From: a bacterium A37T11
Lineage (GTDB): Bacteria; Bacteroidota; Bacteroidia; Sphingobacteriales; Sphingobacteriaceae
DNA: 64,000 nucleotides
Reading direction: 5' to 3'
Assembly (NCBI GenBank): GCA_900109895.1
Contig: FOBR01000003.1
Coordinates: 233,690 to 297,689, forward strand
Shown piece after piece: positions 46,454-64,000 of the stretch. The first letter of the stretch is position 1; every line of letters starts with the position of its first letter. Made by a program: the position numbers and the translations under genes. The notes beneath the pieces were generated by a model, which saw only the letters and a program-made list of their open reading frames with translations, had not been told where the DNA came from and searched no databases.

Positions 46454-47130
46454 ATCGGAAAGCATTGGATATTGCCATTGTTGATGACCACCGGTCATGG
46501 GCCAGCTTGTTGGCTAAGGATCTTATCCAGACATCTGAAAACCACATCTGCGTTTTGTTTACGGCCACGCACGGCAAAGAAATGCAGGAGCGGATCCTGC
46601 TGCACGGCGCACCGAAGGTAATGTTCATGGACTTGCAGATGGATGGGATGGACGGTTATCACAACACGTTATGGTTGAGGAATCATCATCCGGATGTCCG
46701 GGTTTTGGCCATGTCGGCTTTTGATAACCATGCGGCGGTGCTGGAGATGCTGGCTTGTGGTGCCCGGGGGTTTGTTTCTAAAAATGGGGATGCTGCCAGC
46801 ATTTATGCGGCGCTGGTTGATCTGCGTGAAAACGGCGTGCATCTGAACGAGTTTGTTACGGAGGATGTGTGGCAGCGTGTTCACCTGCGCTCCCAAAATG
46901 GGTATACGGCGCTTACGCCTTGGCTGAATGAGCACAGGATGGCTTTTTTACAGCTTTATTGCCAGGATATCAAATTATCGGTCATTGCTGATAAGTTGTG
47001 CCGCTCGGAGCATACCATCAAGCACATGGGTGACGAGATGCAGGCGCATTTTAGGGTGCATTCCCGCCATGCGGTCATCCACAAGGCGCATGAGATGGGC
47101 TTAGTTAATTTATTAAATGAATTTTATTGA
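46450..47130 (+). CDS. NarL/FixJ-type response regulator
   Basis: 226 residues. The receiver domain has the acidic pair in IAIVDDH (12-13), the phosphoacceptor Asp61 in MFMDLQM, the threonine/serine position in AMSAFD and the lysine in FVSKNG. The C-terminal LuxR-like helix-turn-helix is diverged (IKLSVIADKLCRSEHTIKHM). It pairs with the kinase encoded just upstream (ATGA overlap). The target promoters are unknown; the HTH gene that follows and the lipoprotein before are candidates. Confidence 0.9.
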   Translation: MNRKALDIAIVDDHRSWASLLAKDLIQTSENHICVLFTATHGKEMQERILLHGAPKVMFMDLQMDGMDGYHNTLWLRNHHPDVRVLAMSAFDNHAAVLEMLACGARGFVSKNGDAASIYAALVDLRENGVHLNEFVTEDVWQRVHLRSQNGYTALTPWLNEHRMAFLQLYCQDIKLSVIADKLCRSEHTIKHMGDEMQAHFRVHSRHAVIHKAHEMGLVNLLNEFY

Positions 47131-47147
47131 TTTTAAATTTTTACGTT

Positions 47148-47462
47148 ATGACAATGAAAAACAACGCAATTCCTGAGCTGATCCTGGTCAGGGTTACTGA
47201 AATCCTGGAGATCCTGATTGAAACGAAGGAGCTTCAAACCGGCCGCATTCCGGCCCGCACCTTGGTCCCCCAGCATGTGGACAATTACTGGATTATGGAC
47301 TACCTGGGCATTAAGCGCACCACGTTCTACACGCAGGTTCGCAACAAACTCCTATTTCCTGTCTTTAAAATTGGCAAACGGGAGTATTTTGACCGGGAGG
47401 ATGTATACGCTTTAATGAGACACCGGGACGGTGGTGATCAGTCCCATCCTAAGGCTGCCTGA
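47148..47462 (+). CDS. Helix-turn-helix (excisionase-like) DNA-binding protein
   Basis: 104 residues from ATG 47148. The C-terminal half has NYWIMDYLGIKRTTFYTQV and a KLLFPVFKIGKREYFDREDV wing, the form of HTH_17/MerR-like excisionase domains common in Bacteroidota mobile and regulatory contexts. The N-terminal half is helical. It sits 17 bp after the response regulator and before a hairpin. No integrase is near, so the role is probably regulatory rather than excision. Confidence 0.8.
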   Translation: MTMKNNAIPELILVRVTEILEILIETKELQTGRIPARTLVPQHVDNYWIMDYLGIKRTTFYTQVRNKLLFPVFKIGKREYFDREDVYALMRHRDGGDQSHPKAA

Positions 47463-47567: not shown

Positions 47568-49958
47568 TTAATTTTTATATTCAAAATCAGCTAAATAGGA
47601 GCAAGATTCTAACGCTTCTTTATAAAATTTTGTTTCGTGGTATTTTAGTTTTAGCTCTTTAAAATATTTATTTTGCAGGCTATACAACCAAAAGGGGTCT
47701 GGCTTATTATCTTGGTTGAGCCACTGATCATAATAAGCGGCTATGGTTGGGTAAGTATAAAGTTTCTGTTCACATTTGGCAAGCATAAATGTACATGTGG
47801 CTTTAAACTCTTTGTTTGAACTTAATTTTCTAGCCATTTCATACCATTTGGATGCTTGGCGTGCTTCATGAAAATCAGCCGCATAATAATAGTTACCTTT
47901 GATATAGTTGTCAGAACTTGTCCAACTGTAACTGATCAATGACCAGGCATTTCCATAGGCCCCGGTTTGGTAAACACCGTTTGCCATTTGAAAGTAATAT
48001 TTCGAGGCATGAGCAGGATCTTTTTTAATGTGCTGCTCCAGGTCAACCATCTTTTTGGCAAAGCTTATTTTATTTTCCGGTACATTTCCCCACTCTTTTG
48101 GATAATCGTTAATGGATGCAATAAATGGCTTTACATACAGTGTATCTTCTTGGGGGTTGCTATACCAATCAACTATATAAGAAGTCGGGTATTTTTTAGA
48201 AAGCTTATTAAATGCCCTTAAGGCAGCTGAATAATCATGTATACGAAGGTATGCTGTTCCTAATAAATCATAATACTTATCGGTTTTGAGGCTATCCAAT
48301 TCTTTCTTAAGGAGGCCTGACCACGGATTATTTATTCCCTTATCCGCCCATTTGCCTAATTTTTCCAAAGCCTTAGGTTGCAATTGTTCTTCCCAGAATT
48401 CTTCAGAAGATAGCGAAAAACCCAATCTGGGAATATCGCCTTTTTTCATCATCAATGCGGCCATAACTGTATCTTTAAGTTTTAAGAAATGGGGGGTTAA
48501 AACCGACTGGTATATATTGGTGGCTACCCGGCTAAATCGCATGTCTTTTTCAGCAACGTCAACTTCCGCTAATCTTTTTTTGTCCAGCCATTCCAGGGTT
48601 GGTAACAGGTATTGACTAGCTATTTGGTCTGCTGTTTGGATGGTTTGTATCTGTAATAATAAATCAACGATATGGTACTGGTCGCATAGCCGTTGGTTGA
48701 GTTTTTCCGGATCAAGGGTTGAAAGAATTTTGCGCGAGCCCTCTTCATCGTGCAACAGCCACTTTAAATAGGCTTCTGCAATAACTCCTAATGCTGGTTG
48801 ACTGTATTTTTTGTCGGCTGAAAGTTGATGAGAAAATCGGGCGACGTTTTCAGCGTGTTTTCTGGCTAGTGTTAGTGCAGAATCAGGTCTGCCATAGTTA
48901 GTCCACCAACCTTGGTCATAATAGGGGGATGCCTCTGTCAGATAGTTTTCCAATTTATTGATTTCACGGGTTAGTAATACACCTGTGAGTATACTTTTTG
49001 GGGCTAATGAATAGACTTCTGCTAAGGTGTTATAGTCAAAGTTTTCGTTGTTAAATCCTTCAATAGCTTTTATGGCGGCCTTTTCTTCATTGTTCTTGGC
49101 CAGTGCAAGTACATCTTTTTCGGGAATATTAATGTAGTGATAGTTCTTATAGGCTTGTACGCGACGCTCTGGATTGGCCGCAAAAACCTGTGAAAAATGG
49201 TACGCTGCTGCTGCATTGTTACCCATGCGACGCTCAGCTCCTGCTTTTAGCGCCAATGCCCAACCTCTGAGGGCAGTTTTGTTGTGCAAGTTATTAAAAA
49301 ACTCGTCGTATACTGCCAGGCATTTGAGGTATGCTCCTGCGTAATGGTACATACGCAGTGCTTGGTAAGCAAGTCTTAAGCGCAGGAAATTATCCTGGTT
49401 TTTATTATTCGCAGCAGTTATAGCGCGGTTTGCCAAGTTGATCATACTAGCTGTATCTCTGGATTCCGGATCCCAATAGTCAGTAGTCGATGATAATGAC
49501 ACGACTGCATATAATTCAGCCTGTTTTGAAAACAGATAATACTGTTTTGCTTGTTCTTTTTCTTGTAAAGACTTTAAATAGGTGTTTCCAAGTAAACTAT
49601 CCGGCAATGCTGGTTTTTTTTGAGTTAAATAATCGTCGATAAAACCATCTGTTGCTGAATCTGTTGCATACATTACGGCATATACATCTGAAGGGGTTAC
49701 TTTTTTTCCCAAGTATTGAGCCCACTCTTCACTGTTAATTTTTGACTCACTTTGTGGTTCCTCTTCATCGTATAAAAAGCTTAATTCTGTGAATGAAAAT
49801 GGCTCATATCCATTTCCGGCAGTATTATTTTGAAAATAGGATACGTAATAATCATAGGGGTCTGGTTCTGGCCCACAGGCCACATTAAGGGCTATTTCGC
49901 AAAAATAAGCGAGGATAAATGTGCTAAAAACAATGGATAATTTTTTTAAGCTGTTCAT
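47568..49958 (-). CDS. Large exported TPR-like protein of unknown function
   Basis: 796 residues from the ATG at 49958; the frame is open further but the upstream part overlaps another gene and has no export signal. The N-terminus is a signal sequence (IVFSTFILAYFCEIALNVAC) with Cys at its end, so it may be a lipoprotein, followed by GPEPDPYDYYVSYF. The rest is a helical-repeat array of TPR-like pairs (for example LRGWALALKAGAERRMGNNA, and GTAYLRIHDYSAALRAFNKL). No enzyme motif is seen. It overlaps the end of the upstream lipoprotein gene by 35 bp, so the two are coupled. Confidence 0.8.
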   Translation of the reverse strand: MNSLKKLSIVFSTFILAYFCEIALNVACGPEPDPYDYYVSYFQNNTAGNGYEPFSFTELSFLYDEEEPQSESKINSEEWAQYLGKKVTPSDVYAVMYATDSATDGFIDDYLTQKKPALPDSLLGNTYLKSLQEKEQAKQYYLFSKQAELYAVVSLSSTTDYWDPESRDTASMINLANRAITAANNKNQDNFLRLRLAYQALRMYHYAGAYLKCLAVYDEFFNNLHNKTALRGWALALKAGAERRMGNNAAAAYHFSQVFAANPERRVQAYKNYHYINIPEKDVLALAKNNEEKAAIKAIEGFNNENFDYNTLAEVYSLAPKSILTGVLLTREINKLENYLTEASPYYDQGWWTNYGRPDSALTLARKHAENVARFSHQLSADKKYSQPALGVIAEAYLKWLLHDEEGSRKILSTLDPEKLNQRLCDQYHIVDLLLQIQTIQTADQIASQYLLPTLEWLDKKRLAEVDVAEKDMRFSRVATNIYQSVLTPHFLKLKDTVMAALMMKKGDIPRLGFSLSSEEFWEEQLQPKALEKLGKWADKGINNPWSGLLKKELDSLKTDKYYDLLGTAYLRIHDYSAALRAFNKLSKKYPTSYIVDWYSNPQEDTLYVKPFIASINDYPKEWGNVPENKISFAKKMVDLEQHIKKDPAHASKYYFQMANGVYQTGAYGNAWSLISYSWTSSDNYIKGNYYYAADFHEARQASKWYEMARKLSSNKEFKATCTFMLAKCEQKLYTYPTIAAYYDQWLNQDNKPDPFWLYSLQNKYFKELKLKYHETKFYKEALESCSYLADFEYKN

Positions 49959-50964
49959 TCGAATAATGTTTGAATAGTTCGGGATCCAGGTGAAAAAATA
50001 ACAATGTAAAATCTTCTTTACGTTTATGGGAAGATAGGAATTTTGCGGCTTCCAGTAAATCATTGACACGCGATTGTTCATATCGGACCTCATCTCCAAC
50101 CCGGATACCAGTATTTGGTAAAAATTTTTTCGCGCGATATATTATTGATCCGGATGCGTTATGAAATAGGCTGGTGTCAGCCAGCAAATCCGTGTTAAGT
50201 TGTTTGCTAATGCCCATGTAATTACCTTTTCGGAAAACGACTGGCCAACTAAAAAGTGGCAGGGCTATATCTACGGGTAATGGATAGTCTAACAGAAAAT
50301 CTTTGAGGTAGGTATTTATTTCTTTTATTGATATAATGGAATTATGTTCGCCATATTGGCGAAGATTACCCATATTATAACACATCAGCATGGCACGGTC
50401 TACCGGTGGAATTCCGCTACCCTTCATATTACGCACTTGGTGTAGTCTCAATGTTGCACTTAAGCGTATCGTAGATGCCATTCGTTTGCGAAGCGCTTTT
50501 AAAAATTTAAAATAGGCTTCCCGGGTAGTTGCCGTCCAATCACAGTCTATTTGAAGTTCGCTAAAATTTGCTGCACCTGATTGTTTAACCTTGCCTTTTA
50601 CAAACCGGTCAATATGATTGGCTAGGGTTTCCAGGTTTACGTCGTCAATTGCCTTAAACACTTGGTTGACGATGAATACTACCGGAACTACACCCGTATG
50701 TGCAGGCAACTGTTCTTTAAAATTTATGCTGGCTACTGGTATGGCTGCTCCTCTTGGACCTTGATTGTCTACGTCCATTATACGTATGAAGAGTCTTTTA
50801 ATATGGAAATCTTTTAATTGTTGATTTTGTATGCTATCAAGTTGAAAACCGGTTTTCCAAAAATAAAAGGATGTTTCCACTACAGTGGGATTTCTGCTAC
50901 AAGATAGGTGTAGTAAGCAAATGGCTATTATTCCTGTCCAGTATTTATATTTATTTACTCCCAC
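49924..50964 (-). CDS. Lipoprotein with TIM-barrel-like domain (DUF3142-like)
   Basis: 346 residues starting at GTG 50964. Lipoprotein signal ICLLHLSC with Cys22. The segments FHIKRLFIRIMDVD, ELQIDCDWTATTREAYFKFL, IRLSATLRLHQV and DRAMLMCYNMGN follow the strand-helix order of a TIM barrel and resemble glycoside-hydrolase-like domains such as DUF3142. Asp and Cys in QIDCDW are candidate active-site positions, but no activity is known. A reading frame through the 21-bp repeat array ends at TAA overlapping this start, which may couple them. Confidence 0.7.
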   Translation of the reverse strand: MGVNKYKYWTGIIAICLLHLSCSRNPTVVETSFYFWKTGFQLDSIQNQQLKDFHIKRLFIRIMDVDNQGPRGAAIPVASINFKEQLPAHTGVVPVVFIVNQVFKAIDDVNLETLANHIDRFVKGKVKQSGAANFSELQIDCDWTATTREAYFKFLKALRKRMASTIRLSATLRLHQVRNMKGSGIPPVDRAMLMCYNMGNLRQYGEHNSIISIKEINTYLKDFLLDYPLPVDIALPLFSWPVVFRKGNYMGISKQLNTDLLADTSLFHNASGSIIYRAKKFLPNTGIRVGDEVRYEQSRVNDLLEAAKFLSSHKRKEDFTLLFFHLDPELFKHYSNEQLKKIIHCF

Positions 50965-50985: not shown

Positions 50986-51405
50986 TCGTTATTACCAAAG
51001 TTTTGTAGGTCCATACCTTGAAACGGGATCACGGTAAGAGGATGGCTTATTTTTATGCAGTGATCCGTTATTTCCATACGGTGATTGACTATTTTGCTAT
51101 GGTTAGACGCTGTCACGGTATGGGAACGTAAAATATGCATAGGGTGAAATCCCCTCACCATATGTTGATAGACCAGCCTAATATCGGGATTACTTATGAC
51201 GTTGCGATGATTATCTATGGCTATCAAGTGACGTTAAATTTCCATACAGTGATGGCTAGTCACGGTATGGTGGTGCGGCATGACTTTACGTGGATGGAAG
51301 ATTATTGCATCGTGATAATGGATTTCCATAGCGAGATGTAAAATTACCACTGGGTGATGATGGATTTTTATAGCGTGGTGTTAAATTATCATACGGGAAT
51401 TCTCC
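50986..51405. repeat. Degenerate tandem array with an exact 21-bp period
   Basis: The gap 50965-51551 holds no clear gene. From 51028 to 51405 it divides into 18 units of exactly 21 bp with no insertion or deletion; two to three weaker units precede it. Aligned on 51028, position 2 is T in 17 of 18 units, position 1 A in 15, position 8 T in 16, position 9 A in 14, position 12 G in 14, position 14 G in 15, position 15 A in 16 and position 16 T in 14. Other positions vary and no two units are the same. Core example: ATTTCCATACGGTGAT (51070). Some units carry the inverse word, as GTCACGGTATGG (51112 and 51259). 21 bp is both two DNA turns and seven codons. Confidence 0.9.
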
Positions 51406-51551
51406 GGGAGGGTACGGAAAAATAGGTCTTTTAGACCGGTCTATTGTTCTTCTTAGTTCGTAAAACAGTGTTGTTGTTCGTTGTTGTTCGTTGATTTTTA
51501 ATGATTTAAAAATCTATTTATCATTGCATTATTATTTAGCAATGAATAGAA

Positions 51552-51983
51552 ATGAAAGAACAACTAACAACAAAATATACGCAGCGGGAGGGAGTCCTGC
51601 TGCGTAAAGTAAGCGATGCAGGGGACTATGTGGATTTCCTGCATGACCGGGTAAGCAGTGGCTGGCGGGAGTGGCCAGATCGATTGGCGTGGTGGCTATG
51701 GCCACTTTTATTGCCTGGCATCTTATGGCTGTTCCTGAACGCAGGGCCGCTGTTGCGCCGCTGGGATGAAACAGCCGCCGTTGCTGACATCGGTCTGCTG
51801 AGCCACGTCATGCTGGCCCTGCTGTCTGGGCTGCTATTCTGGCTGCTAGCCATATGGCTGGTTATCAAATTCTTTCCGATCATCTTTCAATCATTAAACA
51901 CATGGCAACAATGCAGTATCTATCTGGCTGCCTTCTTATCCTTATTTTGGGGATGGGTGGTGGTGTTGGTAGGGATGGTATAA
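51552..51983 (+). CDS. Small membrane protein, holin-like topology
   Basis: 143 residues. A soluble helical N-terminus (1-44) is followed by three hydrophobic helices at about 45-63 (LAWWLWPLLLPGILWLFL), 85-110 (HVMLALLSGLLFWLLAIWL) and 121-142 (SIYLAAFLSLFWGWVVVLV). No family motif was recognised. The size, three-helix form and an overlap with a following peptidoglycan-hydrolase-like gene (82 bp) resemble a holin placed before an endolysin, but the protein could equally be an ordinary membrane partner. The short charged C-terminus typical of many holins is missing. Confidence 0.6.
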   Translation: MKEQLTTKYTQREGVLLRKVSDAGDYVDFLHDRVSSGWREWPDRLAWWLWPLLLPGILWLFLNAGPLLRRWDETAAVADIGLLSHVMLALLSGLLFWLLAIWLVIKFFPIIFQSLNTWQQCSIYLAAFLSLFWGWVVVLVGMV

Positions 51984-52429
51984 GTAGAAGGAGTAAGGTG
52001 GAAGCCGGAAAGGCAGGCATGCGGGTTAAGCTACAGCAAATCTATAGCAAAGAAATCGGGGTGCACGAAGCCACCGGCCACAACGACGGCAAAAGTGTAG
52101 AAGAATACCTGCGATACTGCGGGGTAGGCAAAGGAAACAATTGGTGCAGTGCCTTCATCTGTTGGTGTTTGGGCCAGGCAGGGATAGCTAACCCGAAGAA
52201 CCCTTGGGCCCCAGCCATGTTTCCTGCAAAAAGGTTGGTCACAACTCCCCTGAAAGGTACCATCTTTGGCCTGTATTTCCCCGAATTAAAACGCATCGGG
52301 CATTGCGGGTTCGTGGACACCTGCGACGGCAAATGGATCACGACAGTAGAAGGCAACAGCGGCAATGCGGTGGTGAGGAAACGGAGGTTGGTATCGACGA
52401 TTGATAGGGTGGCGGATTGGGTGGATTAA
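51902..52429 (+). CDS. CHAP/TIGR02594-like peptidoglycan hydrolase (endolysin-like)
   Basis: 175 residues from ATG 51902. The N-terminus has a short, glycine-rich hydrophobic segment (YLSGCLLILILGMGGG, 6-21), which could be a signal-anchor-release type export signal or a plain signal. The catalytic domain shows EIGVHEATGHNDG, NNWCSAFICWCLGQAG with Cys82, RIGHCGFV with His134 and VEGNSG, the Cys-His-Glu/Asn order of CHAP-type amidases and the phage-linked TIGR02594 family. It starts inside the preceding membrane-protein gene. Likely cuts peptidoglycan in the periplasm. Confidence 0.75.
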   Translation: MATMQYLSGCLLILILGMGGGVGRDGISRRSKVEAGKAGMRVKLQQIYSKEIGVHEATGHNDGKSVEEYLRYCGVGKGNNWCSAFICWCLGQAGIANPKNPWAPAMFPAKRLVTTPLKGTIFGLYFPELKRIGHCGFVDTCDGKWITTVEGNSGNAVVRKRRLVSTIDRVADWVD

Positions 52430-52467: not shown

Positions 52468-53100
52468 ATGAACAAACGAATAGCCAGAGGTGGCTTAAAA
52501 CACATTAAAGACACGGATTTGCTGAATATTGGCAATACGGTAGAGGCGGCGATGACCGGCAACACTAATTTTACGACGCCTAGCCCGGCACTAACGGTGC
52601 TTACGGCGGCTAATGATGATTTCAGGGCCAAAATGGAAGTGGCCAGCCGTAAGGGCAGCCCGCTGGATAAGAGCCTGAAGAACGACAGCCGCGAGGTACT
52701 GGAACAGGTATTGAAGGAATTGGCATTTTATGTAAATAAAGTAGCTAACGGACAGCTGTCTGTAGTGCTGAGCTCGGGTTTCCCGGTAACTGGGCAACCG
52801 GTGAAGTCTACCCTGCCGGGCATCCCGGAACGGGTAAAACTGGCCGACTGGCTGCAAAGCGGGCAGATGATGCTCAGTTTTGACCCGCTGCCTGATGCCT
52901 GGATCTATGAATACTGCTACACAGACCAAAAAGATGCCGAAGGAAATATCGGCTGGACAGAACCGTTTACCACCACGCGCAGCCGGAATAACTTACTGGC
53001 ACCGGTAACGCCTGGCGTGACCTATTACGCCCGGGTAAGGGCCAGGAATGGTAATGGGGTTAGTGATTGGTCGTTAACCGTTTCATTGATTGCCAGGTAA
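52468..53100 (+). CDS. Fibronectin type III domain protein
   Basis: 210 residues without a signal peptide. The N-terminal half is helical (DLLNIGNTVEAAMTGNTNF, VLEQVLKELAFYVNKVANG). The C-terminal half is a fibronectin type III-like module (MLSFDPLPDAWIYEYCYT, VTPGVTYYARVRARNGNGV). I know such proteins as Bacteroidota hypotheticals and as phage-related proteins. It lies 38 bp after the endolysin-like gene and 73 bp before the spanin-like gene, so it appears to be part of the same cassette; its role is unknown. Confidence 0.72.
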   Translation: MNKRIARGGLKHIKDTDLLNIGNTVEAAMTGNTNFTTPSPALTVLTAANDDFRAKMEVASRKGSPLDKSLKNDSREVLEQVLKELAFYVNKVANGQLSVVLSSGFPVTGQPVKSTLPGIPERVKLADWLQSGQMMLSFDPLPDAWIYEYCYTDQKDAEGNIGWTEPFTTTRSRNNLLAPVTPGVTYYARVRARNGNGVSDWSLTVSLIAR

Positions 53101-53173: not shown

Positions 53174-53662
53174 ATGAAAAATCTTTACATGGCAATATCC
53201 ATAATTATGGCCTGCTGTTCCTGCAAAACCCAAAAAGTCACACAGACCAGGCTAAACGAACAGCAACATCTGGAAACCCACCAAACAGAAAGCGCTGACA
53301 GTTTGGTGCAAAACACCCAAACCAAACATTTGTTGATCAGCAACCAGCAGGAACATGCCGAGGCGGAGATCATTCCGGTAGGCCCCTTTACCTACAGCCC
53401 GGACAGCGGCTTTCGCGGATCGGCTGCAAAAGTTACCATTAAGAGGAAACGGAATCAGCAGCAGCTTGAAAAGGACACTACGGCACAGCACACGAAAGCC
53501 GTAAAGAAGCAGAAAATACAGCAACAAGTAACAGACTTACATAAACAACAAGATACCCAATCAAATAGCAAAAGCCAAACCGGCTTTTCCACGTTTCCGT
53601 TAACCCTATTAGTACTCGTTTTAGCAGGCGTCACTTACGCTGCCATCAGAATCCGAAAATAG
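53174..53662 (+). CDS. Lipoprotein with C-terminal membrane helix (unimolecular-spanin-like)
   Basis: 162 residues. The N-terminus is a short lipoprotein signal (AISIIMAC, Cys14) and the last 25 residues hold a single membrane helix (FPLTLLVLVLAGVTYAAI) ending in positively charged residues. Between them is a polar, glutamine-rich helical linker (residues 18-135). A lipoprotein anchored at one end in the outer membrane and at the other in the inner membrane is the layout of phage unimolecular spanins, such as T1 gp11 by published description. No sequence family was recognised. It follows the endolysin-like and fibronectin III genes on the same strand. Confidence 0.65.
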   Translation: MKNLYMAISIIMACCSCKTQKVTQTRLNEQQHLETHQTESADSLVQNTQTKHLLISNQQEHAEAEIIPVGPFTYSPDSGFRGSAAKVTIKRKRNQQQLEKDTTAQHTKAVKKQKIQQQVTDLHKQQDTQSNSKSQTGFSTFPLTLLVLVLAGVTYAAIRIRK

Positions 53663-62902: not shown

Positions 62903-63032
62903 AACTCAGCCGGTCAATCGAACGGCATGGGGATAATAGCGTAGCGGTTTTCCCCGCCGTGAGATGAACGGCTGAGTTATGTATCATTACTGGTTGAGTT
63001 ATTAGATCATGACCGGTTGAGTTATTAGATCA
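62903..63032. repeat. Cluster of direct and inverted GGTTGAGTTATT units
   Basis: GGTTGAGTTATTAGATCAT is present twice without change (62992-63010 and 63014-63032). A diverged copy, CGGCTGAGTTATGTATCAT, is at 62969-62987. An inverted copy, AACTCAGCCG, at 62903-62912 pairs with 62969-62978, and between them ACGGC/GCCGT and GGGGA/TCCCC allow an inner stem. The cluster lies between two Rpn copies and no gene was seen in it. Confidence 0.65.
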
Positions 63033-63156
63033 TTGGTTAAATAATATGGAGTACCGAATATTTGAACTGGCATTAACTTAAACTTCATATAAAACAAAAA
63101 ATCACCCGGTGTTTTACAACGGATGATTTGTATAATGTATATAATTATAAATATAC

Positions 63157-63540
63157 TTAAAGTTTCTCCACAACACCAAGTGGTAAGTTTAAACTAGATG
63201 ATATAACATTTAATTCAACACCTGATTTCTTTAACGTTCTGGCACCTTCCAGTTTTTCAGCTTCTGCTCTGGCCTGTAGTTTGGCTATTTCCTGATCAGC
63301 CTTAGCACGCTCTTCACGACGACCCTGTTCCAAGCCTTGTTTTAGCTTAAAATCCAGGGCATTTTGATTATCCCATCGCTTTTTTAATTCCATATCGTAC
63401 AACATCCTTTCTTCGTCCGTTAAGTTATTATATTCAGCAATATTAAACAGTCGCTTAAAAACAGGTTTGTTAAGCACCCTTGGTAATTTTTTGAGCTTAC
63501 TCAGGTGCCGTAAAGAATAGAGCCAGTCGTCAAGATCTGT
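63157..63540 (-). pseudogene. Rpn-family (PDDEXK_2) 3' end, tandem duplicate
   Basis: The frame is open from 63540 to 63157 and a TAA stands directly before it, so only the last 127 residues exist. They contain LDDWLYSLRHLSKLKKLPRV, RLFNIAEYNNLTDEERMLYD, a coiled-coil (GLEQGRREERAKADQEIAKL) and the end LPLGVVEKL. The DNA is nearly the same as 63578-63994, which shows a tandem duplication of the 3' end of the neighbouring gene. Relative to that copy it lacks 33 bp in the coiled-coil. Probably not functional. Confidence 0.75.
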
Positions 63541-63577: not shown

Positions 63578-64000
63578 TTAAAGTTTCTCCACAACTTCCA
63601 GCGGAAGGTGAAACTTCTCGGCTATTTGGTGATTACTTAGCACACATAGTTCTTTAATGGAACGAGCGGTTTCCAGTTTATCAGCTTCTGCTTTTAGTTT
63701 GTCAGCTTCCGCTTTATCCGCTCTGGCCTTCAGTTTGGTTATTTCCTGATCAGCCTTAGCACGTTCTTCACGACGACCCTGTTCCAAGCCTTGTTTTAGC
63801 TTAAAATCCATGGCATTTTGATTATCCCATCGCTTTTGTAATTCCGTATCGTACAACATCCTTTCTTCGTCCGTTAAGTTATTATATTCAGCAATATTAA
63901 ACAGTCGCTTAAAAACAGGTTTGTTAAGCACCCTTGGTAATTTTTTGAGCTTACTCAGGTGCCGTAAAGAATAGAGCCAGTCGTCAAGATCTGTTTCCAA
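63578..64000 (-). CDS. Rpn-family recombination-promoting nuclease/transposase, 3' part (cut by window edge)
   Basis: The gene continues past the right edge; 140 codons are visible. The family is recognised from DDWLYSLRHLSKLKKLPRVL and NLTDEERMLYDTELQKRWDN, as in PDDEXK_2 (Rpn-like) proteins, followed by a coiled-coil with the repeat KAEADKLKAEADKLE and the end LPLEVVEKL. The nuclease motifs would lie outside the window, so activity cannot be judged. It appears to be the parent of the partial copy at 63157-63540. Confidence 0.75.
   Translation of the reverse strand: METDLDDWLYSLRHLSKLKKLPRVLNKPVFKRLFNIAEYNNLTDEERMLYDTELQKRWDNQNAMDFKLKQGLEQGRREERAKADQEITKLKARADKAEADKLKAEADKLETARSIKELCVLSNHQIAEKFHLPLEVVEKL

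Follow-up and report, generated by a model that had tools for sequence, protein, structure and literature searches.

Phased arrays of 21-bp palindromic units recur with differing motifs beside HTH_17 genes and lysis-type cassettes in a bacterial genome

The window analysed here is a stretch of 64,000 nucleotides (C17:233690-297689) from a 5.09-Mb genome in 60 contigs, the sole genome of its genus in the genome collection used. It contains an array of short palindromic sites framed by a gene for a small predicted DNA-binding protein and a group of lysis-type genes on the forward strand (Table 1). The presumed array binder matches Pfam HTH_17 at E 8e-6, with 26.5 bits against a cut-off of 27. 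In its predicted structure, residues 5-28 form a helix and residues from about 41 to 92 a confidently predicted winged helix-turn-helix (HTH) (mean pLDDT 80), and the nearest solved structures, at modest scores, include Pukovnik Xis, a putative excisionase, BldC-DNA complexes, RdfS and Cox. The same protein (47127-47462) also matches, weakly (27 bits, where the NCBIfam cut-off is 80), the MAD1 HTH protein of a methylation-associated defence system. Judged from topology, the genes beyond the array resemble the components of a phage lysis module, namely candidates for a holin, an endolysin and a unimolecular spanin. The first of these is a putative holin by position and topology, and each of the 19 members of its family in the scanned DNA has two to three hydrophobic segments. 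The CHAP gene probably starts later than 51854. Members of the spanin-like lipoprotein family carry a C-terminal hydrophobic segment in 16 of 20 cases and a strict lipobox in 12 of 20. A genome search with the protein bearing the fn3-like stretch (fn3 protein) gave 27 matches, including two fragments; no match at E 1e-5 was found in phage or plasmid collections and no relative among viral contigs.

Table 1. Features of the window (window positions) and motifs of further dyad-symmetric arrays in the genome (contig:position).
Feature	Position	Strand	Basis or remark
HTH_17 (Xis/BldC-like winged helix-turn-helix) protein, 111 aa, presumed array binder	47127..47462	+	Pfam, predicted fold, context
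Lipoprotein (49924-50964) and second long ORF (47568-50099), between HTH_17 gene and array	47568..50964	-	
Array of 19 dyad-symmetric 16-bp sites, 21 bp start to start, 5-bp spacers	51007..51400	none	
Array-to-cassette gap, presumed promoter region	51401..51551	+	sequence; promoter function putative
Holin-like small membrane protein, 143 aa, 2 long hydrophobic stretches	51552..51983	+	position, topology
CHAP-domain peptidoglycan hydrolase, endolysin-like	51854..52429	+	Pfam CHAP E 7.7e-6; PHROG tail lysozyme/endolysin matches
210-aa protein, weak C-terminal fn3-like stretch; cassette marker gene	52468..53100	+	
Spanin-like lipoprotein, lipobox near N-terminus, C-terminal hydrophobic segment (unimolecular spanin topology)	53174..53662	+	function putative
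Array motif TGACGnnCGTCA	C15:284977		
Array motif CACAATATTGTG	C24:14208, C14:136326		
Array motif TGCAGTACTGCA	C17:49745, C8:2768; related form C34:26662		
Array motif AAGTTTAAACTT	C52:97449		
Array motif TTGGAnnnnTCCAA	C33:8077		

The array had been described in a sequence-only reading as 18 units of exactly 21 bp at 51028-51405 under a fixed base mask. The exact register stands, while the extent changes to 19 sites at 51007-51400, with one more at the left. The unit at 50986-51006 falls outside the register (score -5.8) and that at 51406 is marginal (1.2). Identity at lag 21 is 0.449 against a maximum of 0.351 in 20,000 mononucleotide shuffles (mean 0.262, SD 0.022), so that the periodic array stands as real. 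The best other 378-bp stretch of the window reaches 0.341, and within the array identity at lags 42, 63 and 84 is 0.476, 0.423 and 0.467. The mask also holds over the 19 units, with T2, T8 and A15 each kept in 17, A1 and G14 each in 16, A9 in 15, and G12 and T16 each in 14. A separate 23-bp tandem repeat of 3.1 copies lies at 62964-63033, near two similar ORFs (63157-63477 and 63578-64000).

The feature overlooked in that reading is the palindromic nature of the mask. Columns 1-16 form a 16-bp palindrome with the consensus ATYWCCRTAYGGWRAT, and the remaining 5 bp are spacer. The position weight matrix of the unit correlates with its own reverse complement at r=0.77 for one of 21 shifts (next best r 0.21), and none of 5,000 column permutations reached the observed self-match. 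Spacers are nearly blank, with 0.24 bit at column 17 and 0.01-0.08 bit at columns 18-21, and agree between units at 1.16 of 5 positions, which is the random level. Some units had been seen to hold the inverse of the core word, as they do because the site is dyad-symmetric. Complementary pairs between the half-sites of a unit number 70 against 74.8 expected, and 93% of shuffles reach 70. This lack of covariation identifies the symmetry as that of a dimer-binding DNA site rather than a hairpin. At E<=0.01, motif model R1 matched only the window array within the source genome, where 150 of 1,074 first-look candidates were scored, and a matrix search of 99 relatives, as the sequence-only reading had proposed, gave one weak and unconvincing match of 15.4 bits (E 0.0098; 55 candidates scored per genome). 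With at most two mismatches, the ATYWCCRTAYGGWRAT pattern occurs at 76 forward places, at least 5 of them inside the array, vs 64 for a reversed control.

Arrays of the same period are found at many places of the genome. The scan covered 2.39 of 5.09 Mb, with 17 stretches picked around fn3 genes, and array densities are therefore biased. In the 2.02 Mb chosen before the link to fn3, a scan of lags 10-70 gave 22 periodic places, of which 13 have a period of 21, 42 or 63. Across the 2.39 Mb, 40 places reach z>=5 at lag 21, against 0, 0, 2, 0 and 0 at lags 19, 20, 22, 23 and 28; the coding-multiple lags 18, 24 and 27 give 10, 5 and 10 places. At z>=5.5, 29 places carry the 21-bp phase, and 21 of these are dyad-symmetric at p<0.01, as assessed per array from 300 column permutations. 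The other eight comprise two borderline cases (p 0.013 and 0.02) and six without a dyad; one of the six is a homogeneous repeat within an ORF (C24:54066), and two adjoin HTH_17 genes (C24:224516 and C15:384367). Pairwise alignment placed 10 of the 21 dyad arrays in four related groups and left 11 single, amounting to about 15 motifs. The motifs in Table 1 are not exhaustive, and further dyad arrays have other palindromes. The arrays share with REP and MITE elements that intergenic palindromes occur at many places of one genome. REP repeats, however, have one sequence common to all places, whereas here the period is common and the sequence mostly differs. No description of arrays of this kind was found in the open-licence PMC literature.

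The arrays recur within a co-directional gene order of HTH_17, array, and then the holin-like, CHAP, fn3 and spanin-like genes. An HTH profile recognised 14 HTH_17 genes in the scanned DNA, with a fifteenth match (E 0.0098) left out. Eight of the 14 are followed by an array at z>=6 within 750 bp on the 3' side, compared to 1.7% of 1,968 control ORFs even at z>=5. The array lies between HTH and fn3 at nine of the 14 HTH loci (the window, C15:285488, C33, C27, C16, C34, C24, C59 and C15:384692), two of which, C24 and C15:384692, lack a significant dyad. All four cassette genes are present at five of the nine, one locus misses the spanin-like gene only and three have fn3 only. Among the other five HTH loci, C12 (twice) and C29 have fn3 and no clear array, C19 has an array after the cassette, and C20 has an array and no cassette. 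The association also holds from the side of the fn3 genes. An array (any of the 29) lies within 2.5 kb upstream of 13 of the 27, downstream of 4 and on either side of 16, and random placement gave 0.8 fn3 genes with an upstream array on average and 6 at most in 2,000 trials. The window locus is unusual in its spacing. From HTH gene to array, the distance over the nine loci is 0-75 bp at six, 287 bp at C24, 797 bp at C16 and 3,543 bp in the window. The minus-strand pair in the window is probably an insertion, because the array begins 0-75 bp after the HTH gene at those six other loci.

The minus-strand lipoprotein gene has one copy in the genome, and its closest named relatives are in Sphingobacteriaceae, e.g. 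Parapedobacter, Olivibacter and Pedobacter. A period at orthologous loci had been put forward as a check. Upstream of 80 loci with relatives of the lipoprotein no such degenerate array was seen, only an unrelated minisatellite at one of them (L107), and none of 80 and 29 loci (overlapping sets) holds an array of the window motif. This check is beside the point, since it is the HTH_17 gene and the fn3 cassette, and not the lipoprotein, that accompany the arrays. Among 11 lag-21 places in relatives' loci tested for a dyad, the lowest p values were 0.037 (L099) and 0.04 (L128).

Not every array has a recognised HTH_17 neighbour. Such a gene stands beside eight of the 21 dyad arrays, within 180 bp at six, at 0.8 kb in C16 and at 3.5 kb in the window. 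At the other 13 none was recognised, and seven of these 13 adjoin a cassette. The closest paralogues of the window HTH protein are without clear arrays. Small genes that were not recognised occupy the HTH slot directly 5' of dyad arrays at C31:124423-124824, C52:100687-101202 and C14:135945-136301. They were considered as diverged HTH proteins and rejected, as the HTH profile misses all three and Pfam misses those of C31 and C52. These genes may encode other array-binding proteins.

Related units occur in other genera. A search of 151 genomes of the family (source genome included) with the HTH alignment found matches in 54, and a protein search with the alignment found 9 proteins. The fn3 protein is present in 21 of the 151 genomes and 9 of 25 genera, with 7-12 copies in the relatives G003, G150 and G131. 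Five loci around the closest HTH relatives were compared, and three of them (L362 of genome G003; L363 and L364 of G150, which is another genus) have the order of HTH gene, 21-bp dyad array and cassette. Their arrays start within about 25 bp of the end of the HTH ORF, and in L363 and L364 fn3 precedes the holin-like and CHAP genes. In L360 a cassette is present and no strong array follows the HTH gene; a weak array (z 4.8) lies beyond the spanin-like gene. L361 has neither strong array nor cassette. L356, from the genus of G150 and cut out by the search itself, carries an HTH gene and fn3 together with an array of 17 units (dyad p 0.010). The HTH domains of L362 and L363 are 88% identical across different genera, and their arrays of 35 and 21 units have the palindrome CGcAAGC..GCTTcCG in common. 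Across 13 HTH-array pairs, HTH identity correlates with motif similarity (r=0.62, p=0.00015), mostly from two close pairs, and leaving out two near-duplicate rows gives r=0.24 (p=0.049). The same correlation could arise if the whole unit were inherited by common descent. In genome G131, a locus upstream of an fn3 gene (L365) has holin-like and CHAP genes and no array. Another G131 locus (L366:1972-2160) carries a 21-bp array (z 8.9) upstream of fn3, with no HTH_17 gene in the 3 kb examined. Three loci in other genera (L333, L335 and L336) have, downstream of more distant HTH_17 genes, periods of 22 and 33 that reflect an 11-bp repeat, with z at lag 22 of 9.5, 6.4 and 9.8, respectively. Eleven base pairs are one helix turn and not a codon multiple. 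No cassette gene was recognised within 1.5 kb on either side of these three arrays, in which the same design may exist with a single turn per unit.

Exact phase, dyad symmetry, near-blank spacers, many differing motifs and the recurrent HTH_17-array-cassette order in three genera characterise these elements. From this combination, we infer binding by HTH_17 dimers, a filament on one face of the DNA and control of the cassette. Two helix turns per unit with one protein contact per unit on one DNA face, as the sequence-only reading had proposed, remains the best reading of the sequence. As the best explanation, about as likely as not to be right, we suggest that the 19 phased palindromes serve as a cooperative operator track for the HTH_17 protein encoded 3.5 kb upstream, which would switch the predicted phage-type lysis cassette about 150 bp downstream. 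An HTH_17 dimer would read one 16-bp palindrome, and at 21 bp per dimer all dimers would sit on the same DNA face, touching and coating the array. The coated track might gate, or repress, the promoter of the lysis cassette beyond the array, and many weak in-phase sites could yield a sharp on-off response. Each paralogue would have changed its DNA specificity in step with its array, and having a motif of its own would keep the switch copies separate and without cross-talk. Arrays without an HTH neighbour might be bound in trans by a paralogue whose own array has that motif (the C34 protein in the case of C17:49745 and C8:2768) or alternatively by a candidate from another family. More broadly, the arrays could represent a new class of chromosomal element, in which paralogous Xis/BldC-type regulators, each with a private co-evolving track of 10-35 palindromes fixed at two helix turns, form a couple dozen insulated filament switches for phage-derived self-lysis cassettes. 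This generalisation is possible, if doubtful. If true, one genome would hold a natural library of regulator-operator pairs with a common fold and 21-bp geometry that differ in the base sequence read. Such a library would provide a test bed for specificity change in winged HTH proteins and for sharp switching by long phased operators. The bacterium would also maintain numerous lysis cassettes under separate control, a point relevant to why domesticated phage lysis genes are retained.

Among the closest known systems is BldC, the Streptomyces MerR-like winged HTH protein that multimerises on repeats; the window protein is predicted to have a winged HTH of HTH_17 type. In the passages cited, filament formation along DNA or in crystals is reported for both BldC and RdfS, and the cooperative filaments of BldC are said to leave one DNA turn between bound subunits (PMC5859096, PMC11963761). 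BldC is described there as binding head to tail on direct repeats that vary in number, and as having no coiled-coil dimerisation domain (PMC5859096). The present arrays differ in that each consists of 9-35 palindromes spaced at a fixed 21 bp. The window HTH protein, unlike BldC as portrayed in that passage, has a predicted N-terminal helix.

The arrays might instead be centromere-like or anchoring sites, comparable to plasmid parC sites bound by ParR or to iterons bound by Rep. A DNA-binding protein would load on them to position, pair or handle DNA, and the lysis cassette would simply adjoin. In plasmid iterons and type II centromeres, repeats in helical phase adjoin the gene for the protein that binds them, and every replicon has its own motif. 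The arrays are similar in having phased repeats and private motifs beside a presumed binder gene, in the manner of parR-parC and rep-iteron units. Some arrays are moreover without any cassette, and at least 20 sites are many for a promoter switch. We nevertheless regard an anchoring role as unlikely. The arrays stand on long contigs and often near lysis-type genes, more than 20 arrays per chromosome are unlike a partition system, and the array is placed between HTH gene and fn3 at most HTH loci (9 of 14). Furthermore, the eight flanking ORFs of the window include no ParM/ParA-type ATPase or other motor and no replication initiator.

A role in DNA movement appears improbable. The HTH_17 protein would then be excisionase-like and the arrays accessory sites for the excision or movement of mobile cassettes. 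Phage and ICE excisionases (Xis, RdfS, Cox) are small winged HTH proteins as well, the predicted fold is common to both, and these proteins and a putative excisionase are among the nearest solved structures. The 27 fn3 matches imply spread, and related arrays occur without cassettes. No integrase or other recombinase, however, is seen among the eight flanking ORFs scanned in the window. Motifs also vary from copy to copy, whereas mobile copies usually share their ends. RdfS is reported to have an extra N-terminal helix that drives oligomers and to have no consensus motif. Each dyad array here does have a consensus, which sets it apart from the reported RdfS sites.

That the arrays are functionless tandem repeats of 21 bp that have drifted, i.e. 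decayed minisatellites, was already disfavoured and is very improbable. Whole units have been gained and lost in the arrays, and a 63-bp higher order exists at C17:79931. Near a locus with a relative of the flanking lipoprotein, Pedobacter chitinilyticus has a homogeneous 21-bp minisatellite (L107:5149-5450; units about 92% identical) between convergent genes. This repeat is without a significant dyad (r 0.27, p 0.76) and is thus probably unrelated to the dyad arrays. Dyad symmetry and near-blank spacers argue against decay, as does an identity that stays flat with distance. Near units of the window array are no more alike than distant ones (9.6, 10.3, 9.1 and 10.0 of 21 positions at distances 1-4, with no trend), leaving no trace of tandem duplication. 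Comparisons between related arrays are in line with the claim that the register looks selected. Three pairs align with gaps that add to whole units (21, 42 and 21 bp), namely C17:49745 with C8:2768 (535 bp aligned, 72% identity), C24:14208 with C14:136326 (438 bp, 77%) and C10:9522 with C47:16182 (267 bp, 72%). Departures from this are a single gap of 2 bp, lying within the outermost 15 bp of C24, and some paired gaps of 3 bp that offset each other. Units therefore come and go while the phase stays. Dyad columns are kept, in phase, between related arrays. Column identity on the ungapped diagonal tracks column information (Spearman 0.68, p=0.0007, and 0.65, p=0.0013), reaching 0.88 at the dyad centre and 0.30 in the spacer of the first pair, and a shared motif by itself would produce part of this correlation. 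Identity exceeds that of unrelated units by 0.20 and 0.11 on average in two related pairs.

A protein-coding heptad repeat, as the sequence-only reading had considered, or an array of RNA hairpins is scarcely credible: 21 bp do equal seven codons and one frame is open throughout in 5 of the 21 dyad arrays, but stops interrupt all six frames in the other 16, including the window array (15, 10, 2, 17, 7 and 2 stops), and window units show no complementary covariation within themselves, with a slight excess between neighbouring units in one array of 13 (C10, z 2.2). A few adjoining units are perfect inverted copies, as a hairpin array would have them, while the arrays overall show no general excess of such copies and the window array has none of 11 nt or longer. 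Inverted neighbours of this kind were seen in C8 (L268:3214-3258), with arms of 22 nt, and in C10 (L225:9729-9762), with arms of 15 nt, which suggests template switching or the inversion of units in place.
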